From: Beroe forskalii
Lineage: Eukaryota; Ctenophora; Nuda; Beroida; Beroidae
DNA: 64,000 nt
Direction: 5' to 3'
Assembly (NCBI GenBank): GCA_011033025.1
Contig: WFMF01000227.1
Span: 210,295-274,294, forward strand
Shown here: piece after piece, positions 21,434-63,700 of the stretch
Position numbering within the stretch: the first letter of the stretch is position 1
How the letters are laid out: each line of letters begins with the position of its first letter
Notes under the pieces: generated by a model
The model's database searches: none
What the model was told of the DNA's origin: nothing
Seen by the model: the letters and a program-made list of their open reading frames with translations, nothing else
Program-made: the position numbers and the translations under genes

Positions 21434-24400
21434 ATGGGTGGCAGATCGGCCAAGTTACAGAAGCAGATGTTCCCTCGAAGCAGAACAAAGTTGGAAGTGA
21501 TCCAAGATAAGTTGACTGGGAATGTTCCTTCGTATCCGAGTGTTCCTGCGAGCTCCCACAAAATAAAGGTGAGTTCGTAGAATAAAGGTGAGCTGGAAGA
21601 GTAAAGGAGGTGAGTTGGAACTTCCAAGATTGCGCTTTAGTCAAGAGTACACTAGGCCTTACTCTGATGAATTTTGCTCTGCTTTTGCCCTTCCACATAT
21701 TATGATGTTTACGCGTTAGCGGATAATCTTTTATCAGACCTGTTCATAGGGTCTAAGAAAAGATTTTTCAAATAAAATGACGTTTAAGTAAAAACGACAT
21801 AAAATTATTGAGATTTCCTTTTATTAATTGAGTTTCGCGCGCTAAGATAAGCAGTCCAACTTTCTCCTTCATTCCTTCATTCTATTAATTGTTTGGGGGC
21901 TGATTATCTTATCATTGAATTCAAAAGCACGCTTCTAGCTGAAGGGTTCAATGGATCTATGATGTAATGGACTGCATTTTCGAGTCTCAAATCTGAATTT
22001 ATTTTTACCGACTTGAAATCTAGAAATTATGAAATATTTCACAAGCCAAGCCGTACCAAGAACGAAAAGCACGCTCTTTCCACATATTATGACGGAATGG
22101 TTTTTCCAATTAGGTTGATCCCGACGGAACGCCCCAATATTCGAATCTGCTGAAAAACGTGGCGGGAAATATTCAGAGTACTAAAGATAATTTAAGGTAG
22201 ATATAAATCGATTAAATTTACTTATCTGATAGATTGCCAGACGTTGCCTGGCCCCCTTCGCGCGCGCCCAGAATCGGAGAGTCTGATTTATAATATGGGT
22301 CAAACAACGTCTGGCGAATGAGAGATTTGCTTTCGGCGAAGTATTCATTTCATTATTATGTGACCACCATAATATTTTATGGCGAATTATTTTCATTATC
22401 ATTTCATAATTTATTTATCAGGTTTAAAGAGTTCTGTATGAACCCCCCCTGCGGCTATACCAGACCAGGGGTGCACCCCCTTTCATACACTAAACTCTGT
22501 AGGTTCAAAGAGTTCAGTATGAACAAACCCCCTGCTGCCTTACCAGAGGTGGTACCCCCTACCCTCTTTCTACACCCCACTAAACTCTGCGGGTTTAAGG
22601 AGTTCAGTGTGAACAAACCCCCTGCTGCCCTACCAGAGGGCGGCACCCCCACCCTTCCCTCTTTCTACACCCCAATAAATTCTGCAGGTTTAAAGAGTTC
22701 AGTATGAACAACCCCCCTGCTGCCCTACCAGAGGGCGGCACCCCCACGCCCCCAGGATTCCTGGATAAGGAGATGCTGACTAAGATATTCATCACGGAGA
22801 AAGGGTCCTCTGATCTACACACCAGGTACTGTGCACTCGCGAAAAAATACGTGAAAATACGCGGGCTGATTTGAAATGTATCATGCAAAGTTTCAATATA
22901 CAGTTTCTGCCAAAAAAAATACGTATCGTATTTTCTGCTGTATTTTCAAAAAATACAGCAGAATCTTGCCTAGCATTGAGGGCCGGGTTGGTCATGAAAT
23001 TAGGATGTTCAGATTTGGGAGATTTTTCGAGCACATTTGGCCACTTGCCCAGTCCTGCCGCCAGAATTATAATGAGTTATGACCGTATGATCCCATGACT
23101 TTGCTATGACGACTGTTTCACAATCCCATGATTGTGATAGGAACCCATGACTCTGATACGGAATCACAAGTTTAGGACGAACCCATGAGTCATGGGCTAT
23201 GCTGGCATGAATTTGATACGAACTCATGACTTTGGTATGAACCCATGAGTCATGGATTCGAACCAAAGTCATGGGCCATGAATTTGGTAGGAACCCATGA
23301 CTTGGGTAGGAACCCTTATTATATCCACCATACCAAATATGATTTGGTTAGAACTTTGGTAAGAACTCATGATTATGAAAGGAACCCTCGTTATGTATTG
23401 AAATATCTGAAATGTTATTAAATTAATATTTTTATGGGCTCATCTTTCCGCACTTAATAATCAGTACAAGGTGTGGCAGATGTTAATAGTTCTGAAGAAA
23501 GTTTAATTAATATTTTTCCCAAAACCAAAAAGGATTTGGTTGTGATGGTCCGCGGCGGTTTTAAGGCGTTCTTTACTGTAAAACCCATGATATGAGAAAG
23601 AACGCGACGGTTGAAACTGCAGCTGCAACGTCACAATATACAGCATTCACGTAACATTAATGCATCAAGAAAGTGCCGTTGCGGCAGTTTCAACCGTCGC
23701 GTTCTTTCTCATATCATGGGTTTTACAGTAAAGAACGCCTTAAAACCGCCGCGGACCATCACAACCAAATCCTTTTTGGTTTTGGGAAAAAATATCACCC
23801 TTTTTCTGTGCCCAGATATTGAAATTTGGCGTCAAATCGCGCGTAAAAATTCGCGTCACCTAGCATTACTGATGACGTCACAATTACGTCATAAAATTAG
23901 ATAAGCTATCTGAGACCCATTCATTAACACAATTGGGACTATGACCGACAACATATCCAAAGATGAAGTTCTGGGGTTGTCCCGTTCTCTCTCCACTAGC
24001 TTCACAAGTTTTGCCATTTTTTGGGATTTTTTTCGTGTCAAAGTGTTTCAAACAATCGCATATATCTCAAGGATGCTGGGGAGTTTAGAACTTTTCAACC
24101 ACATTTTTAAAAAGTACATTAAATTTCCTTTCCACGCTAGGAGGGGCATTTTTTCCTATCTCGAAAGCTTCATACCGAAAAATTGCGTTGAAAAACGCCC
24201 ATTTTTGGGAAAATCGACATTTGAAATTCTTAGTTTTGTGACGTCATTATGACGTCATCATCGTGACGTAAAATAGTTTTTAAGGGCATTTTTCGCAAGT
24301 TCTATCCTTCTACTTTCCAACGCTGGGTCGATGAGCTCTGTATCTTTTACCGTTCCCGAGATATGACCGTTTAAATAGGGTATACTTCTTGCACTAAAAG

Positions 24401-27400
24401 CGTCATCTCTCTATATGTATCAGCGTCGTAACCCTTTTTAACAAGAACACCCTCAATTTTGGCGATTTCAAGTAGTTATAACTCAGCCATTTCTGAACGA
24501 ATTGATCTCAAATTTTAAACTCCGAGCGCGCGCACAGCGAAGGCGCGGAAACTCAATTTTCAATTGATTTGATCGTCGGGAAGGTTCCGTAAAAAATTTT
24601 GAAATTTGGCGAATCCACAAAACATATATATGGGGGCTGGCAAGCGCAGCGATGCGTACGCATCGCGTGTACGATTTCGGTGCGAATAAGTTGTCATAAC
24701 TTGGGCATCTTTTATCCAATCGATCTGAAATTTTGACAGTTGCACCTTTGACCCTCAAACATGCGACGTATAGATTTTGGTGGAAATCCAATAACGGAAA
24801 TTGCCCAAATTTCTTCGTGAAATGAGGGGAAATACATGAGATTTCTCTCGTTAGAATCGCCGTCCAATGCTCGCCCTCGGACCCTTCGGGTCCTCGGGCT
24901 CGCAGCTCGGGCCTTCGGCCCTCGCACTGTTAGGTTCGCCGTCCAATGCTCGCCCTCGGGCCCTTCGGGCCCTCGGGCTCGCAAACCGCCGCGGGGGGCT
25001 TGCAAGCCCCCTGATGACGAGCTGGGTAATGTCAGTCATTTAGTTCTGTTTCAGAAGTTCAGATTTATCAATTGTGAATTGATGTCGTCATTATTGATGA
25101 TTTCATTATTTTGGGTCAATTGCCGATGTCATTTCCGGTCCGTCCATTATCATCAATATCACTTAAAATTCTGTTTCAGATGACTTAATGAATGGCAATT
25201 GACGATGTCATCTTGATTTAACTTTCTAACTTTCACTTTCCACTTCCATGTTTAACATTTTGGAGACAATCTCAGCCAAAAAAATTATAAAAATCTCTCA
25301 AAACAGGAGCATTACGAACAGCAGTTTATGCGGCTTCTGTGTGTGCGGCGTAAAATCGTATGAACAACATGTCTGTCCGCCGTGTAAACTTAAGCCGCGC
25401 ACACAAAAGACGCGTGCCCTGCAGTTCGAACTGTCACCATTACGCCACCCTGTTTCAGGGTTGGTCTTACCGAGGAGGAGCTAAATAAGATATACTCGTG
25501 TTACTCAGGCTACCGAGTACATTACGACACCATGTTTCAGGGTTGGTCTTACTGAAGAGGAGTTAAATAAGATCTACTCGTGTTACTCAGGCTACCGAGT
25601 ACATTACGACACCATGTTTCAGGGTTGGTCTTACTGAAGAGGAGTTAAATATATACTCGTGTTACTCAGGCTGAGTACATTACGACACCATGTTACAGGG
25701 TTGGTCTTACTGAAGAGGTGAATATACTCGTGTTACTCAGGCTACCGAGTACATTACGACACCATGTTACAGGGTTGGTCTTACTGAAGAGGAGTTAAAT
25801 AAGATCTACTCGTGTTACTCAGGCTACCGAGTACATTACGACACCATGTTTCAGGGTTGGTCTTACCGAGGAGGAGTTAAATAAGATCTACTCGTGTTAC
25901 TCAGGCTACCGAGTACATTACGACACCATGTTTCAGGGTTGGTCTTGCAGGCTACCAGTACGTCACCATGTTTCAGGGTTGGTCTTACCGAGGAGTTAAA
26001 TAAGATATACTCGTGTTACTCAGGCTACCGAGTACATTACGACACCATGTTTCAGGGTTGGTCTTACTGAAGAGGAGTTAAATAAGATCTACTCGTGTTA
26101 CTCAGGCTACCGAGTACATTACGACACCATGTTACAGGGTTGGTCTGACCGAGGAAGAGTTAAATAAGATATACTCGTGTTACTCCGGCTACCGAGTACA
26201 TTACGACACCATGTTTCAGGGTTGGTCTTACCGAGGAGGAGTTAAATAAGATCTACTCGTGTTACTCAGGCTACCGAGTACATTACGACACCATGTTACA
26301 GGGTTGGTCTTACTGAAGAGGGAGTTAAATAAGATCTACTCGTGTTACTCAGGCTACCGAGTACATTACGACACCATGTTTCAGGGTTGGTCTTACCGAG
26401 GAGGGTTAAATAAGATCTACTCGTGTTACTCAGGCTACCGAGTACATTACGACACCATTACGACACCATGTTTCAGGGTTGGTCTTACCGAAGAGGAGTT
26501 AAATAAGATCTACTCGTGTTACTCAGGCTACCGAGTACATTACGACACCATGTTTCAGGGTTGGTCTTACCGAGGAGGAGTTAAATAAGATCTACTCGTG
26601 TTACTCAGGCTACCGAGTACATTACGACACCATGTTACAGGGTTGGTCTTACCGAGGAGGAGTTAAATAAGATCTACTCGTGTTACTCAGGCTACCGAGT
26701 ACATTACGACACCATGTTTCAGGGTTGGTCTTACTGAAGAGGAGTTAAATAAGATCTACTCGTGTTACTCAGGCTACCGAGTACATTACGACACCATGTT
26801 TCAGGGTTGGTCTTACCGAGGAGGAGTTAAATAAGATCTACTCGTGTTACTCAGGCTACCGAGTACATTACGACACCATGTTTCAGGGTTGGTCTTACTG
26901 AGAGAGGTTAAATAAGATCTACTCGTGTTACTCAGGCTACCGAGTACATTACGACACCATGTTACAGGGTTGGTCTTACCGAGGAGGAGTTAAATAAGAT
27001 CTACTCGTGTTACTCAGGCTACCGAGTACATTACGACACCATGTTACAGGGTTGGTCTTACCGAGGAGGAGTTAAATAAGATCTACTCGTGTTACTCAGG
27101 CTACCGAGTACATTACGACACCATGTTTCAGGGTTGGTCTTACTGAAGAGGAGTTAAATAAGATCTACTCGTGTTACTCAGGCTACCGAGTACATTACGA
27201 CACCATGTTACAGGGTTGGTCTTACCGAGGAGGAGTTAAATAAGATATACTCGTGTTACTCAGGCTGCCGAGTACATTACGACACCATGTTTCAGGGTTA
27301 CGAGGAGGAGCTAAATAAGATATATCGTGTTACTCAGGCTACCGAGTACATTACGACACCCTGTTTCAGGGTTGGTCTTACTGAAGAGGAGTTAAATAAG

Positions 27401-30324
27401 ATCTACTCGTGTTACTCAGGCTACCGAGTACATTACGACACCATGTTTCAGGGTTGGTCTTACTGAAGAGGTTAAATAAGATAAAGTACATTACGACACC
27501 ATGTTTCAGGGTTGGTTAAGTTACTCAGGCTACCGAGTACATTACGACACCATGTTACAGGGTTGGTCTTACTGAAGAGGAGCTAAATAAGATCTACTCG
27601 TGTTACTCAGGCTACCGAGTACATTCCGACACCATGTTACAGGGTTGGTCTTACCGAGGAGGAGTTAAATAAGATATACTCGTGTTACTCAGGCTACCGA
27701 GTACATTACGACACCCTGTTTCAGGGTTGGTCTTACTGAAGAGGAGTTAAATAAGATCTACTCGTGTTACTCAGGCTACCGAGTACATTACGACACCATG
27801 TTTCAGGGTTGGTCTTACCGAGGAGGAGTTAAATAAGATATACTCGTGTTACTCAGGCTACCGAGTACATTACGACACCATGTTACAGGGTTGGTCTTAC
27901 CGAGGAGGAGTTAAATAAGATATACTCGTGTTACTCAGGCTACCGAGTACATTACGACACCCTGTTTCAGGGTTGGTCTTACTGAAGAGGAGTTAAATAA
28001 GATCTACTCGTGTTACTCAGGCTACCGAGTACATTACGACACCATGTTTCAGGGTTGGTCTGACCGAGGAAGAGTTAAATAAGATATACTCGTGTTACTC
28101 CGGCTACCGAGTGCATTATGCCACCATGTTACAGGGTTAAATGGTCTTACCGAGGAGGACATTTAAATAAGTTGGTCTTACCGAGGAGTTAAATAAGATA
28201 TACTCGTGTTACTCAGGCTACGACACCATGTTTCAGGGTTGGTCTTACCGAGGAGGAGTTAAATAAGATATACTCGTGTTACTCAGGCTACCGAGTACAT
28301 TACGACACCATGTTACAGGGTTGGTCTTACCGAGGAGGAGTTAAATAAGATCTACTCGTGTTACTCAGGCTACCGAGTACATTGACACCATGTTACAGGG
28401 TTGGTCTTACCGAGGAGTTAAATAAGATACTCGTGTTACTCAGGCTACCGAGTACATTACGACACCATGTTTCAGGGTTGGTCTTACCGAGGAGGAGTTA
28501 AATAAGATATACTCGTGTTACTCAGGCTACCGAGTACATTACGACACCATGTTTCAGGGTTGGTCTTACTGAGAGGAGTTAAATAAGATATACTCGTGTT
28601 ACTCAGGCTACCGAGTACATTACGACACCATGTTTCAGGGTTGGTCTTACTGAAGAGGAGTTAAATAAGATATACTCGTGTTACTCAGGCTACCGAGTAC
28701 ATTACGACACCATGTTTCAGGGTTGGTCTTACCGAGGAGTTAAATAAGATATGGTCTTGTGTTACTCAGGCTACCGAGTACATTGTCCACCATGTTTCAG
28801 GGTTGAGAGTTAAATAAGATATACTCGTGTTACTCAGGCTACCGAGTACATTACGACACCATGTTACAGGGTTGGTCTTACTGAAGAGGAGTTAAATAAG
28901 ATCTACTCGTGTTACTCAGGCTACCGAGTACATTACGACACCATGTTACAGGGTTGGTCTTACCGAGGAGGAGTTAAATAAGATCTACTCGTGTTACTCA
29001 GGCTACCGAGTACATTACGACACCATGTTACAGGGTTGGTCTTACCGAGGAGGAGTTAAATAAGATATACTCGTGTTACTCAGGCTACCGAGTACATTAC
29101 GACACCATGTTTCAGGGTTGGTCTTACTGAAGAGGAGTTAAATAAGATCTACTCGTGTTACTCAGGTACGCTACCATGTTTCAGGGTTGGTCTGATAAGA
29201 TCTACTCGTGTTACTCAGGCTACCGAGTACATTACGACACCATGTTACAGGGTTGGTCTTACCGAGGAGGAGTTAAATAAGATCTACTCGTGTTACTCAG
29301 GCTACCGAGTACATTACGACACCATGTTACAGGGTTGGTCTTACTGAAGAGGAGCTAAATAAGATCTACTCGTGTTACTCAGGCTACCGAGTACATTACG
29401 ACACCATGTTACAGGGTTGGTCTTACCGAGGAGGAGTTAAATAAGATATACTCGTGTTACTCAGGCTACCGAGTACATTACGACACCATGTTTCAGGGTT
29501 GGTCTTACTGAAGAGGAGTTAAATAAGATATACTCGTGTTACTCAGGCTACCGAGTACATTACGACACCATGTTTCAGGGTTGGTCTTACTGAAGAGGAG
29601 TTAAATAAGATATACTCGTGTTACTCAGGCTACCGAGTACATTACGACACCATGTTTCAGGGTTGGTCTTACCGAGGAGTTAAATAAGATATACTCGTGT
29701 TACTCAGGCTACCGAGTACATTACGACACCATGTTTCAGGGTTGGTCTTACCGAGGAGGAGTTAAATAAGATATACTCGTGTTACTCAGGCTACCGAGTA
29801 CATTACGACACCATGTTTCAGGGTTGGTCTTACTGAAGAGGAGTTAAATAAGATCTACTCGTGTTACTCAGGCTACCGAGTACATTACGACACCATGTTT
29901 CAGGGTTGGTCTGACTGAGGAGGAGTTAAATAAGATATACTCGTGTTACTCCGGCTACCGAGTGCATTACACCTCCAAGGAAGATGAATTGGCAGATAAT
30001 TTGAGAAAGGGTGAGTGCGCTCAAGCAACAATCGTCCTCAAAGATAACGTACCCCAACCCGTATTTTTGCGTCGATCAATGAAGGAATTGATCATCAGAA
30101 ATGCGCATTTTACCGTGCGTGCAATCTATTTTTCATGGCAATTCTGTCGTTTAATGCGCATTTTTATTCATCGATTCATGTGTACACCTGTGTAACACCC
30201 CATTATTTCAGAAGGGACCCAGTCGCCCCCTATGATGAGCGTCAATACGCCTGAAGTTAAGCAGCACATGATGTACGAAGCTGAGATGAAGCACCGGAAG
30301 GAGCAACAACAGGAGAACACTTGA
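21434..30324 (+). CDS. Unrecognised 191-aa protein, five exons
   Basis: Exons 21434-21568, 22114-22196, 22688-22825, 29904-30010 and 30212-30324 have canonical sites and phases that agree, giving 576 nt (191 aa plus TGA). The protein starts MGGRSAKLQKQMFPRSR. The middle is Pro-rich (NNPPAALPEGGTPTPPG), followed by GLTEEELNKIYSCYSGYRVHY and a charged Lys/Glu/Gln-rich tail. There is no signal peptide or membrane segment, and I recognise no family. ATG is taken as the start because it follows the acceptor TTTTATAG directly. Exons 3 and 4 are each preceded by tandem copies of their own 5' ends with acceptors, and exon 1 is followed by extra donor copies. Exon 4 here is the last unit of a 4.4-kb array. 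A broken paralogue lies at 32718-35004. Confidence 0.8.
22410..22750. repeat. Tandem copies of exon-3 start with acceptor
   Basis: Four copies of (C/T)AG, GTTTAAAGAGTTCAGTATGA and a Pro-codon stretch start near 22421, 22501, 22591 and 22688. They are separated by CTCTTTCTACACCCCACTAAACTCTG-type pyrimidine tracts. Only the last continues into complete exon 3. The three upstream copies are truncated versions of the same exon edge, and one has lost its AG. The paralogous block 32906-33320 has further copies. Confidence 0.9.
23085..23400. repeat. Degenerate ACCCATGACTTTGGTA(C)GA repeats
   Basis: About 14 imperfect units of roughly 18-22 bp built on AACCCATGA and TCATGG, partly inverted. A GGATTCGAACC inside it is part of the repeat, not a tRNA T-arm. 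Confidence 0.8.
23509..23794. mobile_element. Large near-perfect palindrome (arms about 111 bp)
   Basis: The left arm 23509-23620 and right arm 23684-23794 are reverse complements with almost no mismatch, around a loop of about 60 bp. Ends read ATATTTTTCCCAAAACC and GGTTTTGGGAAAAAATAT. It contains GGTCCGCGGCGG and GAACGCGACGG blocks and no open frame. Such freshly identical arms suggest a recent foldback element or recent inverted duplication. Confidence 0.85.
24236..24266. promoter_or_regulatory. TGACGTCA pair
   Basis: GTGACGTCATTATGACGTCATC contains two overlapping-spaced perfect CRE palindromes (TGACGTCA), with a third partial GTGACGTAA following. It lies in repeat-like intron sequence, so a regulatory role is doubtful. 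Confidence 0.3.
24855..25012. repeat. GC-rich duplicated hairpin
   Basis: Two copies of CGCCGTCCAATGCTCGCCCT (24859 and 24938), each followed by strong hairpins such as GGGCCCTTCGGGCCC and CGGGCCTTCGGCCC. Very GC-rich against AT-rich surroundings. Long open frames on both strands here come from composition only. Confidence 0.8.
25305..25442. mobile_element. Hairpin element, family A
   Basis: GCGGCTTCTGTGTGTGCGGCG, ACATGTCTGTCCGCCG and CTGCAGTTCGAACTGTCACC match the family. It ends just before the 82-bp array and is present at the equivalent place in the second copy (34450-34560). Confidence 0.7.
25443..29903. repeat. 82-bp array of exon 4 starts, each with its own splice acceptor
   Basis: About 54 head-to-tail units, some truncated. 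Each has an acceptor (GTTTCAG or GTTACAG), then GGTTGGTCTTACCGAGGAG, codons for ELNKIYSCYSGYRVHY, then GACACCAT back to the next acceptor. The period of 82 is not a multiple of 3, and many units carry TGA after GGTCTTAC. Reading through is therefore closed; no unit but the last has a donor. In the second copy of the locus (34577-34702) there is a single unit. There, TTACGCCACCA just before the acceptor and TTATGCCACCA inside the exon are exactly 82 bp apart, which defines the array unit and its junction. Confidence 0.95.
30076..30195. repeat. Family B repeat (GATCGAT ends, TGCGCGCAAT core)
   Basis: CGTCGATCAATGAAGGAATTGATC, GTGCGTGCAATCTA, CATGGCAATTCTGTCG and ATCGATTCATGTGTACAC, repeated in the same order at 34756, 39712, 52013 and 58607, with palindromic variants at 10790, 17800 and 50992. 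It fills the last intron of the 191-aa gene. Confidence 0.6.
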
Positions 30325-31433
30325 GGTTGTTTTCCGTATATTAGCTTACTCGAAATCGTCATGAACTCGTTACATCAGTATCCATCGATCGATTGAACTG
30401 ATAGGTTAAAAACGCGCTCAAGTGCTCGTGCACGCGTGGCTTTGCGCGAACGTCATTGGAATTCATCTCGTAATTCATCGAATCAAAAGGCAAACCGTGC
30501 TGGTCTGCTGAAGTTTAGGCAGGTTTGGTTTAGATCTTCGAGTTAACTCTTTGACCCCCCTGTTAATTTATTTACCCGTCCCTCATTGATGTAATTTATT
30601 TTTCTAAAACTCGTTTTATAAAAAACTGAGTTTCATCATTTCTTTTTGGTATCAGTAAAAAGGTGAAGGGGACCAGGGGTTAGATATTTGAGAGGGCAAA
30701 ATTTTAGACGGTCAAACATGAGGGATGAATTTTTTTAACCCCATAAATCACCTTTTTGGCCCCAGAGGCTGCAACAATTTTTCTAACCCCATGAATTAAT
30801 TTTCGGATTTAATTCAAATCATGATTTTTTTTGAACAATTGAAACAACATTTAAAACAAACATAATCAAATCCGGAACCATTTTTATTATTTCATAATCG
30901 AATGTCAATAATATATCAAATATATAAGAATAAATAATAACCCCGGTCAAACAAACAATAAATAAAATGTTTCAAGTTATATCATACCTTCTAAATAATA
31001 AAAGCTTGAACTCTCTGTCAAATACTAGCAAGATATATAATTTATTAAATTTAATTGTAATATTTTATTAAATTTAAATAATCTCGCTACATGCAAATTC
31101 AACTGCTCCTGCGATTGAAAAGTTCATAAAATTCAAATAAACCCCTTATCAAATAACTATCAAATAAAAGATGTTCATTGTTAATTTCGTTAAATAAACA
31201 TGTTTTTCTATTGATAAGAATACCTTAAAAGTCTCTTCGTTGATTTTATCATGTAACATTTCATGATAACAACCATGAACTGTCATTTTCTTCCACCTTG
31301 ACAATGACACCTTTTTCCTTCCATCTTGACTCTTTTTTCCCTCCATTGTGACACCAGCAGAACCTTGACACCAGCAGCATCTTGACACCAGCTCTATATT
31401 TTAACACCTAATCCTAGAGTTACTAAAGGATCG
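30325..31433. other. Inter-gene AT-rich sequence and 3' UTRs of converging genes
   Basis: No supported exon. It holds the 3' end of the 191-aa gene (plus) and the 3' UTR of the precursor gene (minus, several AATAAA on that strand, e.g. near 31063-31068). Nearly the same sequence recurs at 35005-35998. Confidence 0.6.
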
Positions 31434-32051
31434 TCAGCTCCTCGTCTCACACACCCCCTCCTCCACTAACCTCCTCCACTCCGTCCTATCGTGTACCCGT
31501 ACTCTCACACAACATACCCGCCGCTCGGTGGGCGATGAGAGTGTCCCGCAGGACACTGCCCTTCTTCTGTGGGTCTTTTCCGAGGGAGCTGTCTTTTCCT
31601 CATCTGTTGTCACTTTTGTTGTCACTTGTGTTGTCAGTGTCGTTGCAACATCAGGATTCGCAACTTTCCCTCTTTTCTCCACCCCCACTGCTCTTCTCTT
31701 GAATAAAATCCCTGAAGTTGTCGTGGGTGGAGCCCAGAACACTCCCCTCTCCATCATTCCTGCAGGCTGTTCAACCCTGGAAGAGGATGATCTCCGGCTC
31801 CTTTTAACCGCAAAAAGCAGTCCTTTATTGTCATTTTCCTTCTCCTCTGGCGGGTCTGGAGCGTAGAAAAACCCGTACTGTAACCGGGTTGGATGTACGG
31901 AGCCTTTCCGATGGTGTCTGGTCCGATGATGGCTGATCTGGTGGTGTCTGGTTGGTTGGGATCCAGAGTGGATGCTGGCTGTTTCTATGACAACTGTCAC
32001 CATGGCGACCAACGACAAAACGAAGAAAACTGTTGATCTGCTGAGACTCAT
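31434..32051 (-). CDS. Prohormone/neuropeptide-like secreted precursor, copy 1
   Basis: Single-exon gene; 205 aa from MSLSRSTVFF (ATG at 32051-32049), the first true ATG after the TATA box. It begins with a hydrophobic signal peptide (VFFVLSLVAMVTVVI), then a His-rich stretch. Dibasic and multibasic sites follow (VKRSRR, FKRR, THRRR, ERR). Between them are two related segments: GFFYAP ending GLLFAVKR, and GVFWAP ending GILFKRR. The tail has four cysteines (SCG, CC, GVC). Repeated peptide motifs ending at basic sites are what proprotein convertase substrates look like. No Gly precedes the cleavage sites in an amidation position, and I recognise no named family. An alternative is a processed antimicrobial-type peptide. 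A paralogue with the same architecture is at 35999-36601. Confidence 0.75.
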   Translation of the reverse strand: MSLSRSTVFFVLSLVAMVTVVIETASIHSGSQPTRHHQISHHRTRHHRKGSVHPTRLQYGFFYAPDPPEEKENDNKGLLFAVKRSRRSSSSRVEQPAGMMERGVFWAPPTTTSGILFKRRAVGVEKRGKVANPDVATTLTTQVTTKVTTDEEKTAPSEKTHRRRAVSCGTLSSPTERRVCCVRVRVHDRTEWRRLVEEGVCETRS

Positions 32052-32216
32052 TATATCTGGTTGAAAAGTGTCGAAATATAACAAAGTGTGTGTTGTCGAG
32101 GCAAAGTGTCGAGATTTATAAACGGGTTGGGGAAATATTTATCTGACTTAACAATTGTCGAGATAAGAATGTGAATAAAAGCGTTGGATATAATGCGAGT
32201 TGTGAGCGGGTGATGT

Positions 32217-32225
32217 GTTTTATAT
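32217..32225 (-). promoter_or_regulatory. TATA box of precursor gene copy 1
   Basis: TATATAAAA on the minus strand, about 165 nt before the ATG. It is kept at the equivalent place in copy 2. Confidence 0.6.
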
Positions 32226-32324
32226 AAATTCTAACGCGAGGAGCTCACGCACTGTAGATGACATCATACGACACACAGTATCACAAATATTAACCTTCCA
32301 GCGCGTGATGTTATAGGGGTGCAG

Positions 32325-32332
32325 TGACGTCA
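32325..32332 (-). promoter_or_regulatory. Perfect CRE (TGACGTCA) upstream of precursor gene copy 1
   Basis: A palindromic cAMP-response element about 100 bp upstream of the TATA box. Such sites are common in peptide-hormone promoters. It is identical in copy 2. Confidence 0.5.
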
Positions 32333-32717
32333 TTATCATAGCTTAGAATGGAGCGGTAATGAGATCACCCCTATATTTACGTAATATAGCCGAATGTTCT
32401 GTAGTATTACTTCGTTGTATATGGTAAGACCTGCTCAGATAAGCAGTCCAACTTTCTCCTTCATTCCTTCATTCTATTAAATTCTAAATTGTCTGGGGCC
32501 TGATTATCTTATCATTGAATTCAAAAGCACACCCCTAGCTGAAGGGTTCAATGAATCTATGATGTAATGGACTGCATTTTCGAGTCTCAACTCTGAATTT
32601 ATTTTTACCGACTTGAAATTTAGAAATTAAAGAATAATTTAAATTCCAAGCCGTACCAAGAACGAAAAGCACGCTCTTTCCACATATATTATGACGGAAT
32701 GGTTTTTCCAATAATAG

Positions 32718-35004
32718 GTTGATCCCGACGGAACGCCCCAATATTCGAATCTGCTGAAAAACGTGGCGGGAAATATTCAGAGTACTCAAGATAATTTAAG
32801 GTAGATGAGATTTATCGATTACTTAAATATCTGATAAATTGGCGTCTGGCGAAGTATTCCATGTTATTTATGTATTGTGTAACGACCATATTTTCAAGCT
32901 AATCAGGTTGAAAGAGTTCTGTATGAACACCCTCCCCCCCCCCCTGCGGCTATACCAGACCAGGGGTGCACCCCCATTTTCTACACTAAACTCTGCAGGT
33001 TTAAGGAGTTCAGTATGAACAACCCCCCTGCTGCCCTACCAGAGGGTGGCACCCCCCCCCCCCTCTTTCTACACCCCACTAAACTCAGCAGGTTTAAAGA
33101 GTTCAGTAAGAACAAACCCCCATTCCTTCACCCCACTAAATTCTGTAGGTTTAAGGAGTTCAGTATGAACAACCCCCCTGCCGCCCTACCAGAGGGCGGT
33201 ACCCCCACACCCTTCCCTCTTTAAACACCCCACTAAATTCTACAGGTTTAAGGAGTTCAGTATGAACAAACCCCCATTTCTACACCCCACTAAACTGTGC
33301 AGGTTTAAAGAGTTCAAAAAGAAACCCCCCCGGGGTTGGTTCAGGGGTTAAAACCCCCACACCCTTTTTCACATTCCCATAAAATCTTTCAGGTTTGGGT
33401 TTTTAGTATGAACAAACCCCCGCGCCATACCCAGAGGTCACCCCCCTTTCCCCCCTTAAATTCCCGGGTTTAAAAAGTTCGAGGGGAAAAACCCCCCCTG
33501 CAACCCGGGACCCCCCACCCTCTTTTTTTCACACCCTACTTTATTCTGAGGTTTAGAGGGTTTAGTAAGAAAAACCCCCCCCCCCAAAGGGGGACCCCAC
33601 CCCAGGGGTTCCTGGATGGGGGATGCGACAAAATATTCTCCCCTTAGAAAGGGGGCCCCTGATCCACACAAAGGTACCGGCCCCCCCGAAAAAAATGTGA
33701 AAAAATGAATATTTAAATGTATTAAAGTTTAAAAGTTTCTGCCAAAAAAATAGGGATTTTCAATTTTTAAAAAAAAGAATCTTTTTAGCATTCAGGGCCC
33801 TTGGGGCGTTAAAATGTTCAATTTAGATTTTTTATTTTTTTGGGGGATCCTGCCGCCGGGAAATTTTCAAGGAAAATTGGACTGTTTGTCCCATGACCTT
33901 TTCTAGACGACTGTTTAAAACCCCGTGGTGAAAACAAACCCTGACTTTTATACGAAATCCAAAAGGAAAATTTGGGCATGGGTTCCACAAATCATCCCTT
34001 AGAAAACCCCGACTTTGGTTGGTCCCTTACCCAGTCCTAGTTTAATTCCCTGATCGGGAAAAGAACCTAGTTTATTAAAATAATCCAAATTTATTAAAAA
34101 ATTTTTAAGAAACTCATTTTTTCCACTTTTTAATCAGTACAAATTTGCGGATTTTAATAGTTCTAAGAAAGTTTAATTAGTATATACGGGGGAAAATTGT
34201 CAGTCATTTGGTTTTTGTTTTTTGGGTTCCCGAAAATTTAAAATTGGGTGTCTCTTAGATATTTATTATTTGGGGGCAAATGAGCATTTTTATAAGTCAT
34301 TATCATAAATATCACTTAAGTTGTTTCTGATGACTTAGTGTGGCAATTAACGATGTCATCTTGATTTAACTTTCACTTTCCACTTCCATGTTTAACATTT
34401 TGGAGACAATCTCAGCCAAAAAAATAATAAAAATCTCTCAAAACAGGAGCATTACGAACAGCAGTTTATGCGGCTTCTGTGTGCGCGGCGTAAAATCATA
34501 TGAATAACATGTCTGTACGCCGTGTAACTTAAGCCGCGCTTACACAAGACAGTGCCCTGCGGGGACCAATTCACCCTTACGCCACCATTTTACAGGGTTG
34601 GTCTGACCGAGGAAGAGTTAAATAAGATATACTCGTGTTACTCCGGCTACCGAGTGCATTATGCCACCAAGGAAGATGAGTTGGCGGACAATTTGAGAAA
34701 GGGTGAGTGCGCTCAAGCAACAATCGTCTTACTTACCCCGACTGATATTTTTGCTTAGCGTCGAACGATGAAGGGATTGATCGATAGAGAAGCGCATTTT
34801 ACAGTGCGCGCAATCTACTTTTCATAGCAATTCTGTCGCATTTTTATCTATAGATTCATTTACACACCTGTGTAACACACCATAATTTCAGAAGGGACGC
34901 AGTCGCCCCCTATGATGAGTGTCAACACGCCTGAAGTTAAGCAGCACATGATGTACGAAGCTGAGATGAAGCATAGGAAGGAACAACAACAGGAGAACAC
35001 TTGA
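32718..35004 (+). pseudogene. Broken paralogue of the 191-aa gene
   Basis: Exon 2 (32718-32800), exon 4 (34596-34702) and exon 5 (34892-35004, TGA) are intact with splice sites and few changes. Exon 1 is absent because the duplication began in intron 1. Exon 3 is preceded by several truncated copies (32906-33320), and its body at about 33390-33680 is ruined by base changes and indels. Exon 4 exists as a single unit. Probably not translated as in copy 1, though exons 4-5 could serve as alternative 3' exons. Confidence 0.8.
33290..34300. other. Degraded duplicate resembling low-quality base calls
   Basis: This aligns to about 22650-23500 and 25020-25150 but with lengthened C, G, A and T runs, dropped bases and many substitutions. 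The flanking duplicated segments are about 95% identical. For example, GGATTCCTGGATAAGG becomes GGTTCCTGGATGGGG. Abrupt loss of quality inside an otherwise good duplicate suggests sequencing error more than neutral decay. Confidence 0.55.
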
Positions 35005-35998
35005 GTGCAAATGAGAGGTTGACAGGTTTTTATCCTCGGCGTAACAGTTTAATCTCGGAATTCAAAAGGCAAACAGTGTTGATCTGCTGAACTTTAGGCA
35101 GGTTCAGTTTGGACATACTCCGAATCAACTCTTTGATTCCCATCCCATGAATGTTAATTTATTTACCCGTCCCTCATTGATGTAATTTATTTTCCTTAAA
35201 CTCGTTTTATAAAAACCGAGTTTCATCATTTCTTTTTGATATCAGTAAAAAGGTGAAGGGGACAAGGGGTTAGATATTTGAGAGGGCAAAATTTTAGACG
35301 GTCAAACATGAGGGATGAATTTTTAACCCCATAAATTAACTTTTTTGGCCCCTGAGGCTACAACAATTTTCTAACCCCATAAATTAATCTTCGGATAATC
35401 CAAATCATGATTTTTTGAACAATTGAAACAGCATTTAAAACAAACATAATCAAATCCGGAACCATTTTTATAATTTCATAATCGAATGTCAATAGTATAT
35501 CAAATATATAAGAATAAATAATAACCCCGGTCAAACAAACAATAAATAAAATGTTTCAAGTTATATTATACCTTCTAAATAATAAAAGCTTGAACTCTCT
35601 GTCAAATACTCAAGATATATAATTTATTAAATTTAATTGTAATTTTATTAAATTTAAATCAATAATCTCGCTACATGCAAATTCAACTGCTCCTGCAATT
35701 GGAAAGTTCATAAAATTCAAATAAACCCCTTATCAAATAACTATCAAATAAAAGATGTTCATTGTTAATTTCGTTAAATAAACATGTTTTTCTATTGATA
35801 AGAATACCTTAAAAGTCTCTTCGTTGATTTTATCATGTAACATTTCATGATAACAACCATGAACTGTCATTTTCTTCCACCTTGACAATGACACCTTTTT
35901 CCTTCCATCTTGACTCTTTTTTCCCTCCATTGTGACACCAGCAGCACCTTGACACCAGCTTTCCCTTGACACCTAATCCTAGAGATACTAAAGGATCG

Positions 35999-36601
35999 TC
36001 AGCTCCTCGTTTCACAGACCCCCTCCTCCACTAACCTCCTCCACTCCGTCCTGTCGTGTACCCGTACTCTCACACAACACACCCGCCGCTCGGTGGACGA
36101 TGGGAGTGTCCCGCAGGACACTGCCCTTCTTTTGTGGGTCTTTTCCGAGGGAGCTGTCTTTTCCTCATCTGTTGTCACTTTTGTTGTCAGTCTCGTCGCA
36201 TCATCAGAATTCGCAACTTTCCCATTTTTCTCCTCCCCCACTGCTCTTCTCTTGAATAAAATCCCTGAAGTTGTCGTGGGTGGAGCCCAAAACACTCCCC
36301 TTTCCATTCCGGCAGGCTGTTCAACCCTGGAAGATGATGATCTCCGGCTCCTTTTAACCGCAAAAAGCAGTCCTTTATTGTCATTTTCCTTCTCCTCTGG
36401 CGGGTCTGGAGCGTAGAAAAACCCGTACTGTAACCGGGTTGGGTGTACGGAACCCCTCCGGTGGTGTCTGATCCGATGATGGCTGATCTGGTGGTGTTTG
36501 GTTGGGTGGGATCCAGAGTGGATGCTGGCTGTTTCTATGACAACTGTCGCCATGGCGACCAACGACAAAACGAAGAAAACTGTTGATCTGCTGAGACTCA
36601 T
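35999..36601 (-). CDS. Prohormone/neuropeptide-like secreted precursor, copy 2
   Basis: Paralogue of the gene at 31434-32051; 200 aa from the equivalent MSLSRSTVFF (ATG 36601-36599). The signal peptide, GFFYAP..GLLFAVKR and GVFWAP..GILFKRR segments, multibasic sites and four C-terminal cysteines are all kept. Indels remove whole codons only: one Met after PAG and a four-residue TTQV-type block in the Thr-rich spacer. Substitutions concentrate in the spacers (e.g. EKRGK to EKNGK), while the repeated motifs are unchanged. The frame is intact. Neighbouring sequence is duplicated with it. Confidence 0.75.
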   Translation of the reverse strand: MSLSRSTVFFVLSLVAMATVVIETASIHSGSHPTKHHQISHHRIRHHRRGSVHPTRLQYGFFYAPDPPEEKENDNKGLLFAVKRSRRSSSSRVEQPAGMERGVFWAPPTTTSGILFKRRAVGEEKNGKVANSDDATRLTTKVTTDEEKTAPSEKTHKRRAVSCGTLPSSTERRVCCVRVRVHDRTEWRRLVEEGVCETRS

Positions 36602-36774
36602 TATATCTGTTTGAAAAAGCTTAGTGTCGAAATAAAACAAGATGTGTGTTGTCGGGACAAAGTGTCGAGATTTATAAACGATCAGAGGGAAATATTTATC
36701 TGACTTAACAGTTGTCGAGATAAGAATGTGAATAAAAGCGTTGGATATAATGCGAGTAGTGAGCGGGTGATGTG

Positions 36775-36783
36775 TTTTATATA
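36775..36783 (-). promoter_or_regulatory. TATA box of precursor gene copy 2
   Basis: TATATAAAA on the minus strand, at the same position relative to the ATG as in copy 1. Confidence 0.6.
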
Positions 36784-36881
36784 AATTCTAACGCGAGGAG
36801 CTCACGCACTGTAGGTGACATCATACGAGACACAGTATCACAAATATTAACCTTCCAGCGCGTGATGTTGTAGGGGTGCAG

Positions 36882-36889
36882 TGACGTCA
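36882..36889 (-). promoter_or_regulatory. CRE (TGACGTCA) upstream of precursor gene copy 2
   Basis: A perfect palindromic CRE at the same spacing from the TATA box as in copy 1. Confidence 0.5.
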
Positions 36890-38149
36890 TTATCATAGCT
36901 TAGAATGGAGCGGTAATGAGATCACCCCCTATATTTACGTAATATAGCCGAATGGTCTGTAGCGTTACTTCGTTGTATATGGTAAGCCCTCCTGGCGAAA
37001 AATAGGCGGTTATTTTCAGCAACACTTGGCAGCGCGCACAATAGGAATGACGTATCACTGTGACCGCCTATTCATATTCTGAGCATTCATTAACTATTCA
37101 AAGTTCTAGATGTAACGTCAATAGGTTAAATATAATTCTACTCTTACGGCATAGAATTATATTTATAAAATATGCAATAGATTATTTTTGGAAAGAACTG
37201 AAAAACGGGTGAAGAACATGATTTAAATATACTTCTTCCGACAGGAATAATTATGTCGCATAATTAGGCAAGATAGAGATTTGTTTGAGTATTTGTATAA
37301 CGTCATCATTAAATCCGAATGCTCCCCTGACACATTTCTTGCCAGGGCCACATTGGCACAAGTTTTGTCGGCAACGTGATTTGTGATGATTTTACGAGGT
37401 TAATATGTATAATACGATTATAGATCGGTGTTTTTTGGAGATTGCCAAAATGCAGGATTTCCTTATAATCGATAAATAATCACCGCACAATTTAAAAGTT
37501 TCAATGCCAGGAAATATATTAGTTAAGTCATATCATCTATTGAATTTATTCTATTAAATTCTATGATGTAGTTTAAAAAAGCACTGACAAAAAGACTTCT
37601 TTGAGGGATAATGACATCATAATGGTCAGATTTCTCCAGGTGCTTAGTCAATATTCTCATCGAAATCGCGACTTAACATTTTATAAAAACCACAGATTTC
37701 CTTTTTCATCATCCATCAGTAGACAAGCCCATGAAATCAAGGATGATACTTGGACTTGGAGGGACAATGGTCTCGTCTCGACAACTGCACTAATCCCTAA
37801 GGCTAAACACGTGTGTACACCCCCTTTTCTCGCTTGAAAGAAACGCCCATTTTCGGGCATTTTGTGAGCGCAAAGTGCAGCCTTTTCGCCTCAAAACAAT
37901 TGACCTCATGAAAATTTTACCTCCCCTCTGGCTTTTTGAAGAGGTTTATAAAAAAAGGTATTAGTTTGGGTGAAAAATAGCTAAATAGTATACGTGACCT
38001 TGTCTCATATTAATACGAGACAAGGTCACTTGTACTTTTTAGCTATTTCTATTTACGAGTGATAATATTTCACCTCCACGCAAATAGGTTAAGCCCCAGG
38101 AAAGAGAGACGTGATTTCGAATGTTATACTAGAACTTCAGGTGACATTT

Positions 38150-49384: not shown

Positions 49385-50790
49385 TCTAAGGAAACACGTT
49401 TCGTTCGCATTTCCTGAGGAAACGCGTTGCGTACACATTCCTGAGGAAACGCGTTGCGTGCACATTTCCTGAGGAAACGCGTTGCGCGCACATTTCCTGA
49501 GGAAACGCGTTGCGTGCACATTTCCTGAGGAAACGCGTTGCGTGCACATTTCCTGCGGGAATGTGCGTGCGCATTTCCTGCGGGAATGTGCGTGCGCATT
49601 TCCTGCGGGAATGCGCGCGCGACCCATTTTCCGCAGGAATGCGCGCGCGACGCATTTCCAGCGGGAATGTGTGCGCGACCCATTTCCAGCGGGAATGCGC
49701 GCGCGACGCATTTCCAGCGGGAATGTGTGCGCGACGCATTTCCAGCGGGAATGCGCGCGCGACGCATTTCCAGCGGGAATGCGCGCGCGACGCATTTCCA
49801 GCGGGAATGCGCGCGCGACCCATTTCCAGCGCGCGCGACGCATTTCCAGCGGGAATGCGCGCGCGACGCATTTCCAGCGGGAATGCGCGCGCGACGCATT
49901 TCCAGCGGGAATGCGCGCGCGACGCATTTCCAGCGGGAATGCGCGCGCGACGCATTTCCAGCGGGAATGCGCGCGCGACGCATTTCCAGCGGGAATGCGC
50001 GCGCGACGCATTTCAGCGGGAATGCGCGCGCGACGCATTTCAGCGGGAATGCGCGCGCGACGCATTTCAGCGGGAATGCGCGCGCGACGCATTTCCTGCG
50101 GGAATGCGCGCGACGCATTTCCAGCAGGGAATGCGCGCGCGACGCATTTCCGCGCAGCGGGGAATGCGCGCGCGACGCATTTCCTGCGGGAATGCGCGCG
50201 CGACGCATTTCCTGCGGGAATGCGCGCGCGACGCATTTCCAGCGGGAATGCGCGCGCGACGCATTTCCTGCGGGAATGTGCGCGCGACACATTTCCTGCG
50301 GGAATAAACGCGCGACGCATTTCCTGCGGGAATAAACGCGCGACACATTTCCTGCGGGAATGTGCGCGCGACGCATTTCCTGCGGGAATGTGCGCGCGAC
50401 GCATTTCCTGCGGGAATGCGCGCGCGACGAATTTCCTGAGGGAATGCGCGCGCGACGCATTTCCTGCGGGAATGCGCGCGCGACGAATTTCCTGAGGGAA
50501 TGCGCGCGCGACGAATTTCCTGAGGGAATGCGCGCGCGACGCATTTCCCCTGGTAATGCGTGCACCAAAAATTTTTCTGGAAATGTATGTGCACCGCATA
50601 ACCTCTCCGAATGCGTGCGCGACGCATTTCCTCCGGGAAATACATTTTACACGCATTCCAAAAGAATTGAGTTGTACACGCAGTCCCAGACACCAGAGGA
50701 AATGCGTTGCGCACGCATAACCAGGGGAATGCGTTGCGCACGCATTACCAGGGGAATGAATGCGTTGCGCACGCATTTCAAGAGGAAATG
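49385..50790. repeat. 28-bp GC-rich satellite
   Basis: About 49 units of CGCATTTCC(A/T)GCGGGAATG plus CGCGCGCGA. The left end (49385-49550) is a diverged subtype with GAGGAAACGCGTTGCGTGCA. Each unit is half-palindromic (GGGAATGCG / CGCATTTCC) and carries a CGCGCGCG run. Because 28 is not a multiple of 3 and the unit lacks stops on either strand, it stays open in all six frames for hundreds of codons. These open frames are not genes. Confidence 0.95.
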
Positions 50791-60700: not shown

Positions 60701-63700
60701 GGAAATCATTGCAAGCTGTCCAACACGATTTATGTAGGGTCTTCAGTAACTCCGTACTTTCTTCTGCATTCTCGATTATTTCATGGAATAGTGTTGCGAA
60801 TGCACTTACTTCCAACCCCCATTTGAACTGCAAAATGTCGACAATACGTTTGATTTTGGCTGTTTCGGGCCCCAGATCAATTCCACAAAAGGAAGCGAGT
60901 TGGTTAAGTTGATCTTTAGGAACCATAACTTTTCTTCCACCTAAAACCTCCTGGCTGGTACTATCATGGGGCAGGCCGTTTGTTTCAGATGATTTAGTTT
61001 TAGTTTCTTCAACCTCATTTGCTTTAACAGTTTCTTTATCTGCTGTGGTCAAAGCTGGAATGACTTCATCATCGGTAATTGCTTCATCATCGGTAATAGG
61101 TTCGATATCAGCAATGGGTTCGACATCGTCACTAGATACTACATTTGTTGATTTAGCATTGACAAGACTGATGTTTGATTTATCATTAGTAGCAGACTCA
61201 TTTTGTGTTTGAATTTCATCATCCTGAAATAATGAGTCAATTTTAAGATAGATTATTAATTGAGAGCTCGTTTATCTATAGATCACGTATAATTCATATA
61301 ATATCAGGTCAGACATACAAGGAAATCCCCATATTATCGATCCATCCAAAGTGTCGACACTCGACAGCCAAAACAATTTGTCCGATCCGATGCAATTCAA
61401 AATGTTACGGAGCAAAAAGCAGATACGTACGTACGTGCGCGCTTTTTTCTGAAAAGATGCCTTTGAAATAGGCATGCGCGTTACAAAAAGAACGCGATAA
61501 AATTGTAAATTTGTGACAAAATGTCACAATCGCAATCGATTTGCCCCAAAGTGGCAACGCTTAACCTGTCGATTGCAACCAATGATAAATAAATCTCTTT
61601 GCATCGTGAATTCAATGCAAATTCATTATCAGCAAATACCCCACGTTTTTCACTCTGAGCTTTTTGCTTTTAAAAACCTACGTACCCATACGGGCTTTGA
61701 AATTTCAATAAAAGCAGAAGTTAAAACGCAAAACCTTTTTCGTTTTGAAGTTGAGATTGCAAGGTGAGCACCGGTATGTCTGTTCGTTTGTCTCCGATGT
61801 TTTCCTAGTCTTGTTAGGCATGGGTCCTGTGACAGCAGCTTTAGTCTGACTAGAGGGGGTTGCTGGGGTTGAGGTGTGGAGGTTGTAAACTGAGGGGTTT
61901 CAGGGGGTGGCAGCATCTGAAATCATGGTATCAAGTAATGACATACATGTCACATGGTCAAAATTGTCAACTATCAAATCAGCCCGGAAAATCGTGTGTA
62001 AATCAAGGGAAACCCCGAAAAATTAACAAGTTATATACAAGCAATGAAATAAGTGGTGTACTTTTGAACTTATTGTACTGCACTTATTGCACTGCACTAA
62101 TCGCACTGTACTTATCACACTATTGCACTTTACTTACGCCCCCGGCGGAGTGTATGGGAGGGATGTAGGCGGTCATTACGGGGGCTGGGGGTGGGAGAGG
62201 CAGTGGGTAGGGCATAGGTGCTGTACTGTACTGCCACGCTGCACCGTACGTTACTGGTAACATGGGGGGTTAATCGATTGATAAAATAGGATAAATTAAT
62301 CACTTCATATTCTCATAGAACTATACGACTCTTATTCGACAACTCAACAGTCTTTTGAATTGATAAAATATTTCCTCGCGTTTGAAAAATCTCTGGGAAA
62401 ATGCGTACAGGTAAGTAATTCACCTGGTAGCATTAGGGGGCGGGGGGAGCGCCCCAGGAGGTACGGGTTCAGGAGGAGGCAGCGCCCCGGGAACAGAACG
62501 AGGGGGTCCCAGACGACCCGAGGCAGCCAAACTCGTGATGCTATGACCTGGAGAAAGGAGGTGCAATTGCATGATTTGAATAATCTTACTTTTCTAGTTC
62601 ATTTTGTTGCAGCTCTCAGTCAAAAGGGTTTGATTGCTTGGTTGAAAACCCATGTTGGGGTACTACTAAGGGCTTTGAAGGAAATGGAATCATGACAATA
62701 ATTAAATATAAATCATTAAAAATAAAATCCATCTCCGGGCAACAAGTTGATCTTAAGTCAAGTTTTCAGTTGGAATAATAAAATGGGCATCATTCGTTAA
62801 ATCACCTGAGCTTGGAATTGGCCCACTTCCCAGAGCAGCAGCTAGTTTCGGATAGTTATCACTCATAACCCGCGATATCGTCTCGTTATCCAGCTCCGGT
62901 GCTCTCTTCCGCTCCGGTTTCCGGGAGGATTCCTTCTCTCGGCTCCGGGATCGCGAGTGTCGGGATCGTTTCCGTCGTTCTCGGGATTGCCGGCGCTCGG
63001 AGTCCGAGTACCGGCGACTTCGGTGTTTTTCCTTCGAGGATCGCCTGAAATTCGGGACATTTAAGAGGACATTGACAGGTCTTTCACCTTGCAGACCACC
63101 AACTTAATTTACATACAGTTATAGGATTCCAAATAACAAGGAGAAGCCGAGTGCAAATCATTTTGCTTATCGCACCAGGGGAAGCCGAGTGCTATAGGCA
63201 CGTAATTATTGCAGGAGTTATTGCAAATAAGTATCTACAAATTTCACTACTAATAACCTTCGTGGAGAGCGAGAGCGGGAGCGTCTCTCAGGGGACTTCC
63301 TCCGCTCCACAGACTTCCTTGTGGTGGTGATCTTCAGCGGACTCATGCTCCTCCGTGCCTTACCGATTATACTCAGACTCTCAGTCAGACCTAGGGGAGG
63401 TTGTTAAAAGTTATAAGTGCTGTCTTTCAGCAGAATAAGGAACCCCCTCTTTATGAACCCCCGAAAAATGAATATAAAATAAATGATCTAAGCTTGGGCC
63501 GAAGGGGAAACCTTTGAACACAATTCAATCAAAAGCTCTTTATATTGCGATTCATAAATCAATCCAAACCTTCCTCTTCAACCAACTGCTTGGCAACTTC
63601 TCTGATCTGGGACTTGAGAAGTTGCTCGACATCTGCTGCATTGAGATCAGTAGTTGATTTCTCAGGTTGGTTCTTCGCAAGAAGAGGGTTGGATATGCCC

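Follow-up and report, generated by a model that had tools for sequence, protein, structure and literature searches.

How can the start of a single coding exon be repeated dozens of times, and which of its many acceptors would the cell use? This question is raised by a stretch of 64,000 nucleotides from Beroe forskalii (contig WFMF01000227.1, below C278), here called the window, in which the end of an intron and the beginning of an exon form a long tandem array. The answer that we propose, and that we consider quite probable as a whole, is a mirage-type minisatellite, born at a spaced microhomology, grown by unequal exchange and spliced at its last acceptor. Positions are those of the window, and features lie on the plus strand unless stated otherwise.

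The repeated exon start and its gene

The array consists of 57 tandem units at 25440-29966, mostly 82 bp long. Its extent was given by Tandem Repeats Finder, which called 82-bp arrays between 25438 and 29970, and by a search for the motif CAGGGTT with at most one mismatch in 25401-30010. The motif was found at 58 sites, of which the one at 26401 was out of register and was excluded; a unit with more than one change in the motif would be invisible to this search. The first-pass annotation had already recognised the 82-bp array, and its estimate of about 54 copies is replaced by the count of 57. Exactly 82 bp are measured in 38 of the 57 units (the last unit was trimmed to 82 by hand), and 19 are altered in length, 14 of these by a non-multiple of three.

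Each unit combines 19 bp of intron end, including CAG, with approximately 63 bp of the start of exon 4. The CAG before the exon start (CAG/GG, with the border predicted from sequence) is present in 57/57 retained units, as are the first codons of exon 4, both of which had been claimed for every unit. Among the donor motifs tried, GTAAG is absent from 25441-30020 and GTGAG occurs there once, at 30011; no GTRAG lies inside the array, and unit 4 carries GTGAA at 25718. Only the last unit continues to the donor at 30011, in agreement with the earlier reading. In searches of the 216-Mb assembly, exon 4 sequence was found in the array and in the nearby second copy of the locus only, both on C278.

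The last unit is the start of exon 4 of copy 1 (29904-30010), which is followed by the donor GTGAGT at 30011 and continues in frame to the last coding exon (30212-30324), which runs to the stop codon. Upstream lies exon 2 (22688-22825), whose end, in phase 2, is in frame with exon 4 and joins it directly; read from a possible start at the ATG at 22704, the protein has 113 aa. No Pfam family was matched, at E up to 10, by either the 113-aa reading or a longer joined reading, and the PDB, searched by sequence, returned one match, with an E of 1.2. A relationship with NDUFAF4 (PF06784), suggested from remembered motifs, was rejected on the lack of a match in the Pfam searches of the protein readings. 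The PF06784 profile search of the genome gave one weak match, on another contig and below the cut-off.

Both copies of the locus carry the last two coding exons, in copy 2 at 34596-34702 (exon 4) and 34892-35004 (last coding exon). Over 73 codons, the first of them completed with the AG of exon 2 in both copies, there are 12 synonymous and two amino-acid codon differences (dN 0.011, dS 0.367). This predominance of synonymous differences shows that the last two exons have been translated under purifying selection. The gene product would be a small protein, constrained over these two exons in both copies. A search with exon 2 and exon 4 together found full exon 2 once, at this locus; in copy 2, the match is limited to the first 18-28 residues of the exon and occurs twice, within repeats.

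The first-pass annotation had placed the array in a 191-aa gene with an exon 3 before it. The sequence of this supposed exon belongs, instead, to the end of a dispersed foldback element (MITE-like, 25315-25439, with TTA on both sides and ends set by eye, good to a few bases), and the array begins at the right end of this element. A genome search named 452 candidates, of which 40 were scored, and all 40 match: 38 are other copies and two are the copies in the segmental duplication. Another 17 matches were found on the other strand. An exon 3 is therefore not supported, and neither is the 191-aa model, since exon 2 joins exon 4 directly in phase. Furthermore, the phase-0 end of the ATG exon at 21434-21568 gives no in-frame join at the CAG of exon 2, so that the longer gene is not supported from this side either.

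Of the foldback element, at least 40 copies are present in the genome; the window holds three, one of these at C278:215343 (approximately 5.05 kb of the window). Its copies end near CGGTGACAG/CTGTCACCG, with TA or TTA on both sides. The element folds better than shuffled sequences in copy 1 (z -3.6) and hardly so in copy 2 (z -1.4), which, with one case each, is only a hint that the hairpin may have triggered the array.

Probable birth at a spaced microhomology and the two copies

The locus is arranged as a tandem segmental duplication, with copy 1 (or the first of two tandem-placed alleles) at 21841-32432 and copy 2 at 32433-36990. Where copy 1 has the array, copy 2 has a single unit (34577-34669) with microhomology sites at both ends. 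As had been noticed before, these sites, TTACGCCACCA (34577) and TTATGCCACCA (34659), are exactly 82 bp apart. The pair is the only 11-base match of at least 10 at a distance of 82 bp in 34001-36500. Over the whole window, 2684 positions match in at least 10/11 bases at 82 bp, and six of them lie outside seven repeat stretches that were masked by hand: the 34577 site, one at 33488, where the sequence is poor, and four that overlap one another at 62276. In copy 1, the sequence after the last unit (TTACACCTCCA) matches the intron site in 9/11 bases, and the resemblance is therefore not peculiar to copy 2.

A recombinant of the two sites, made of the exon-side site and the intron end, is expected to read TTATGCCACCAT..., and this is read exactly at one of the 56 inner junctions (28116). 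At this junction between units 34 and 35 (28116-28134, TTATGCCACCATGTTACAG), TTATGCCACC is joined to ATGTTACAG. Forty-four of the inner junctions read TTACGACACC(A/C)TGTT(T/A)CAG after one identical 20-base flank, and the remaining 11 are variants or deletions. Aligned to the microhomology sites, the inner unit borders match, and the proposal that the junctions correspond to a recombinant of the two sites is borne out, with the exon-side version at 28116. Unit 34 equals copy 2 across its whole exon part, and unit 10 does so up to the last site. These two units may retain the ancestral state or may result from conversion by copy 2.

Array birth by the 82-bp spaced microhomology appears well supported, as far as can be read from sequence. 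Mispairing or end joining of TTACGCCACCA, which lies in the intron and ends 8 bp before exon 4, with TTATGCCACCA in exon 4 would have duplicated the acceptor together with the exon start. Repeated unequal exchange may then have led to 57 units, with a homogenised interior and with both edges keeping some paralogue-like states.

The order of events can be approached through the divergence of the copies. The flank stretches at 30480-32432 and 35058-36990 differ by 7.5%, whereas the 38 full-length units have no more than four sites at which one unit alone differs, one of the four being paralogue-like. Compared with the flank difference, four single-unit substitutions indicate that the present array is freshly homogenised, which gives no date for its birth. 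In the exon part, the array consensus is five sites away from each working exon, while the working exons are two sites apart. The array has therefore not been freshly copied from its own last unit.

One alternative, which we consider rather unlikely, is that the array is older than the duplication and that copy 2 contracted to one unit, or that the assembler put two alleles next to each other. The single unit of copy 2, which the first-pass annotation took for the ancestral state, may be just that, but a contracted array would likewise end as one unit between two sites, and a tandem-placed allele would look no different. Copy 2 is without a second unit, and all array units match one place, 34577-34669. 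The five sites of the consensus versus the two between working exons look as if the array lineage had split first or evolved faster. On the other hand, a paralogue-like unit with the expected junction lies inside the array, as if the exon had been paralogue-like at birth, unless the unit was converted from copy 2. Poor sequence in copy 2 makes a nearby mis-assembly possible, but with a dS of 0.37 the copies are very far apart for alleles.

This poor sequence lies at approximately 33250-34250, where homopolymer runs of at least 4 take up 0.28-0.40 of the bases per 250 bp (mean over the window 0.093, sd 0.068). Alignment identity between the copies falls there to 0.35-0.67, part of this drop being misalignment from longer exon 2 repeats, and is back to 0.96 after 34313. 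The stretch with smeared homopolymers, 33330-34250, includes the place of exon 2 of copy 2 and has weak homology; it looks like poorly polished sequence rather than evolution and was treated as unreliable. In copy 1, approximately 1.5 kb (23510-25035) are without counterpart in copy 2, and the stretch 23510-23795 matches its own reverse complement at 91%. A long open frame on the minus strand (31437-32138 and 36002-36787), with an ATG and then a hydrophobic stretch, is kept in both copies and looks, by eye, like a secreted precursor with basic motifs.

A second, smaller array of acceptor and exon start is found at the start of exon 2 (22420-22775), with acceptors at 22420, 22501, 22591 and 22686, spacings of 81, 90 and 95, and no AG at 22591. 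The corresponding region of copy 2 (32905-33330) is longer and has six comparable starts, from 32905 to 33301, plus another in the poor stretch. At 21562-21620, a 19-bp repeat multiplies the donor after the ATG exon, with GGTGAG at 21568, 21587 and 21609.

Arrays with a period of at least 15 cover 11.1% of the window without the 82-bp array. They cover 4.8% of 47/74 loci (165,793 bp). Repeat cover was measured on loci from the best 30 of 135 kinase matches, of which 29/30 are without an internal stop and hence poor in splice sites. With tandem arrays covering approximately 5-11% of the sequence measured, finding one at a splice site is no rarity, and those at exon 2 and at the 21568 donor give little reason to see anything special. 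Elsewhere in the window, a 28-bp minisatellite of approximately 36 copies (49547-50548) is open in several frames on both strands, and an exon of a complex I large-subunit homologue lies at 2540-2818 (Pfam Fer4_Nqo3, E 4.7e-18).

Variation among units and choice of the acceptor

Across the 38 full-length units, the exon part has nine variable sites. Eight are shared by at least two units, and all eight are synonymous; the ninth is found in one unit only and changes an amino acid. If sites are independent, as all of these tests assume, the chance of at least 8/9 synonymous sites at a synonymous share of 0.2625 is 1.6e-4, and sites varying in at least two units are more frequent at third positions (7/20) than at first and second positions (1/42, p 0.001). 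No significant difference separates the intron part, with 2/19 such sites, from the first and second positions (p 0.23), and it is therefore no strong control. Six alleles are present in the array yet in neither working exon, and these are all synonymous.

The edges of the array have states of their own. Paralogue-like states are found at k5 in unit 1 and at k28, k67 and k79 in unit 57, the last three recurring, among full-length units, in units 10 and 34 only. The edge sites k31 and k37 in unit 57 are not paralogue-like. The interior is homogenised and the edges are excluded from this, with the paralogue-like states of k5, k28, k67 and k79 being rare inside.

Most likely, the shared variants arose or were filtered in translated copies, either as coding alleles from before the amplification or in units that were temporarily the last. 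Today, the units are hardly translated, as indicated by the length changes in 19/57 of them, 14 by a non-multiple of three. A more far-reaching reading, which we put forward tentatively, is that an intronic array of 4.5 kb comes under the selection that acts on one coding exon. By unequal exchange, units would take the last, translated position in turn, so that only synonymous changes would survive and spread, and the spliced-out array would both document and store the synonymous versions of the working exon.

From 56/57 acceptors, the frame hits a stop before the donor at 30011, which confirms the earlier statement that any acceptor but the last brings in stop codons. Between the last exon start and the donor there are 107 nt, as against at least 189 nt for all other exon starts, distances at which exon definition would be expected to choose the last acceptor. 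Judged from the sequence, it is most likely that the last acceptor is used in this way and that the other 56 units stay intronic, leaving with an intron of approximately 7 kb. The use of any of these 56 acceptors would give an early stop.

Early stops could also have a function. Upstream units might be used, giving short C-terminal variants or targets of NMD and thereby tuning expression, as could be suggested by 57/57 intact and close to identical acceptors and by the synonymous nature of the shared exon variants. We regard this as improbable, because 19/57 units changed length, 14 by a non-multiple of three, and because the array is without an internal GTRAG. Another reading, in which GTACAT and GTGTTA inside the units serve as donors of tandem mini-exons, was rejected by inspection: both are poor donors when compared with the donor consensus, and the introns would be 24-43 nt long.

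A duplication of multi-unit blocks was rejected as well, the longest shared run of unit types being two, which was matched by 407 of 500 shuffled orders. Finally, an assembly artefact is highly improbable, since, despite the poor sequence a few kb downstream of the array and one-base length changes in units 12, 19 and 40 that could be consensus errors, many variant combinations and deletions of up to 42 bp distinguish the units, the longest repeated run of unit types is two, and sequence outside the array is joined to both of its edges.

Relation to known mirages

By its anatomy, the array is a mirage-type minisatellite, and thus a known kind of object. The founding paper on mirages reportedly dates from 2002. 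In the accounts cited here, they are described from lancelet Adh3, the globins BflGb6 and BflGb9, and troponin C, with similar repeats in PGBD5 (PMC3087553; PMC3902484). The sections on BflGb6 report repeats that span the 3' end of an intron and the 5' part of an exon, with many, but not all, units keeping splice signals, and with cluster edges excluded from homogenisation (PMC3087553). For the lancelet globin mirages, RT-PCR suggested undisturbed splicing, and the mechanism is called unclear in the same text (PMC3087553).

Our array resembles the lancelet mirages, as described there, in its tandem repeats across an intron/exon border, its homogenised interior and its edge effect. All 57 retained units span the predicted border, and the authentic edge copy continues into the full exon, from the last unit to GTGAGT and in frame. 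The differences, relative to the same descriptions, are the number of units (57 versus six and three in two BflGb6 haplotypes) and their length (82 bp versus 150-160 bp in BflGb6 and 10-72 bp in Adh3). In addition, a candidate birth site is readable here, whereas the lancelet globin paper, in the part cited, calls the mechanism unclear (PMC3087553). Size, a readable birth site and all-synonymous shared exon variants are what is new compared with the lancelet mirages described there.

Two other systems are related. In human segmental duplications, internal tandem repeats at exon-intron boundaries are described, with a mean of 30-bp units repeated four times, some giving new introns (PMC2812944). 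As in that description, minisatellite variation between recent paralogues alters gene structure here; unlike in it, there is no new donor, and all that the repeats do is to make an intron that is already there longer. A tandem duplication that contains a splice site is also involved where introns are gained by duplication of AG/GT sites, as discussed in PMC3087553. Such a gain takes a new donor and a new acceptor within the duplication, whereas in our array the acceptor is repeated without a GTRAG donor, and no intron is gained.

In COX1 of the mitochondrial contig (13,339 bp), the best PDB match (7o37_a) has Trp aligned with 5/5 TGA codons, and Arg (five), Lys (one) and Ala (one) aligned with the seven AGA/AGG codons. 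The mitochondrial codes of lancelets, ascidians and echinoderms differ from this code. It fits a non-bilaterian animal, plausibly a ctenophore, and looks unlike that of the lancelets, from which mirages are known.

For this minisatellite, which carries a splice site in every unit, birth can be tied to a visible microhomology, and an inner junction still shows the expected join. With 57 near-identical acceptors and a single donor, the gene is also a natural test between exon definition, in which the last acceptor wins, and intron definition, in which the first one wins. That all shared variation is synonymous suggests a coding filter through which units pass, or once passed. If selection on the coding exon does reach the array, variation biased towards third positions would be expected among the units of other mirages.
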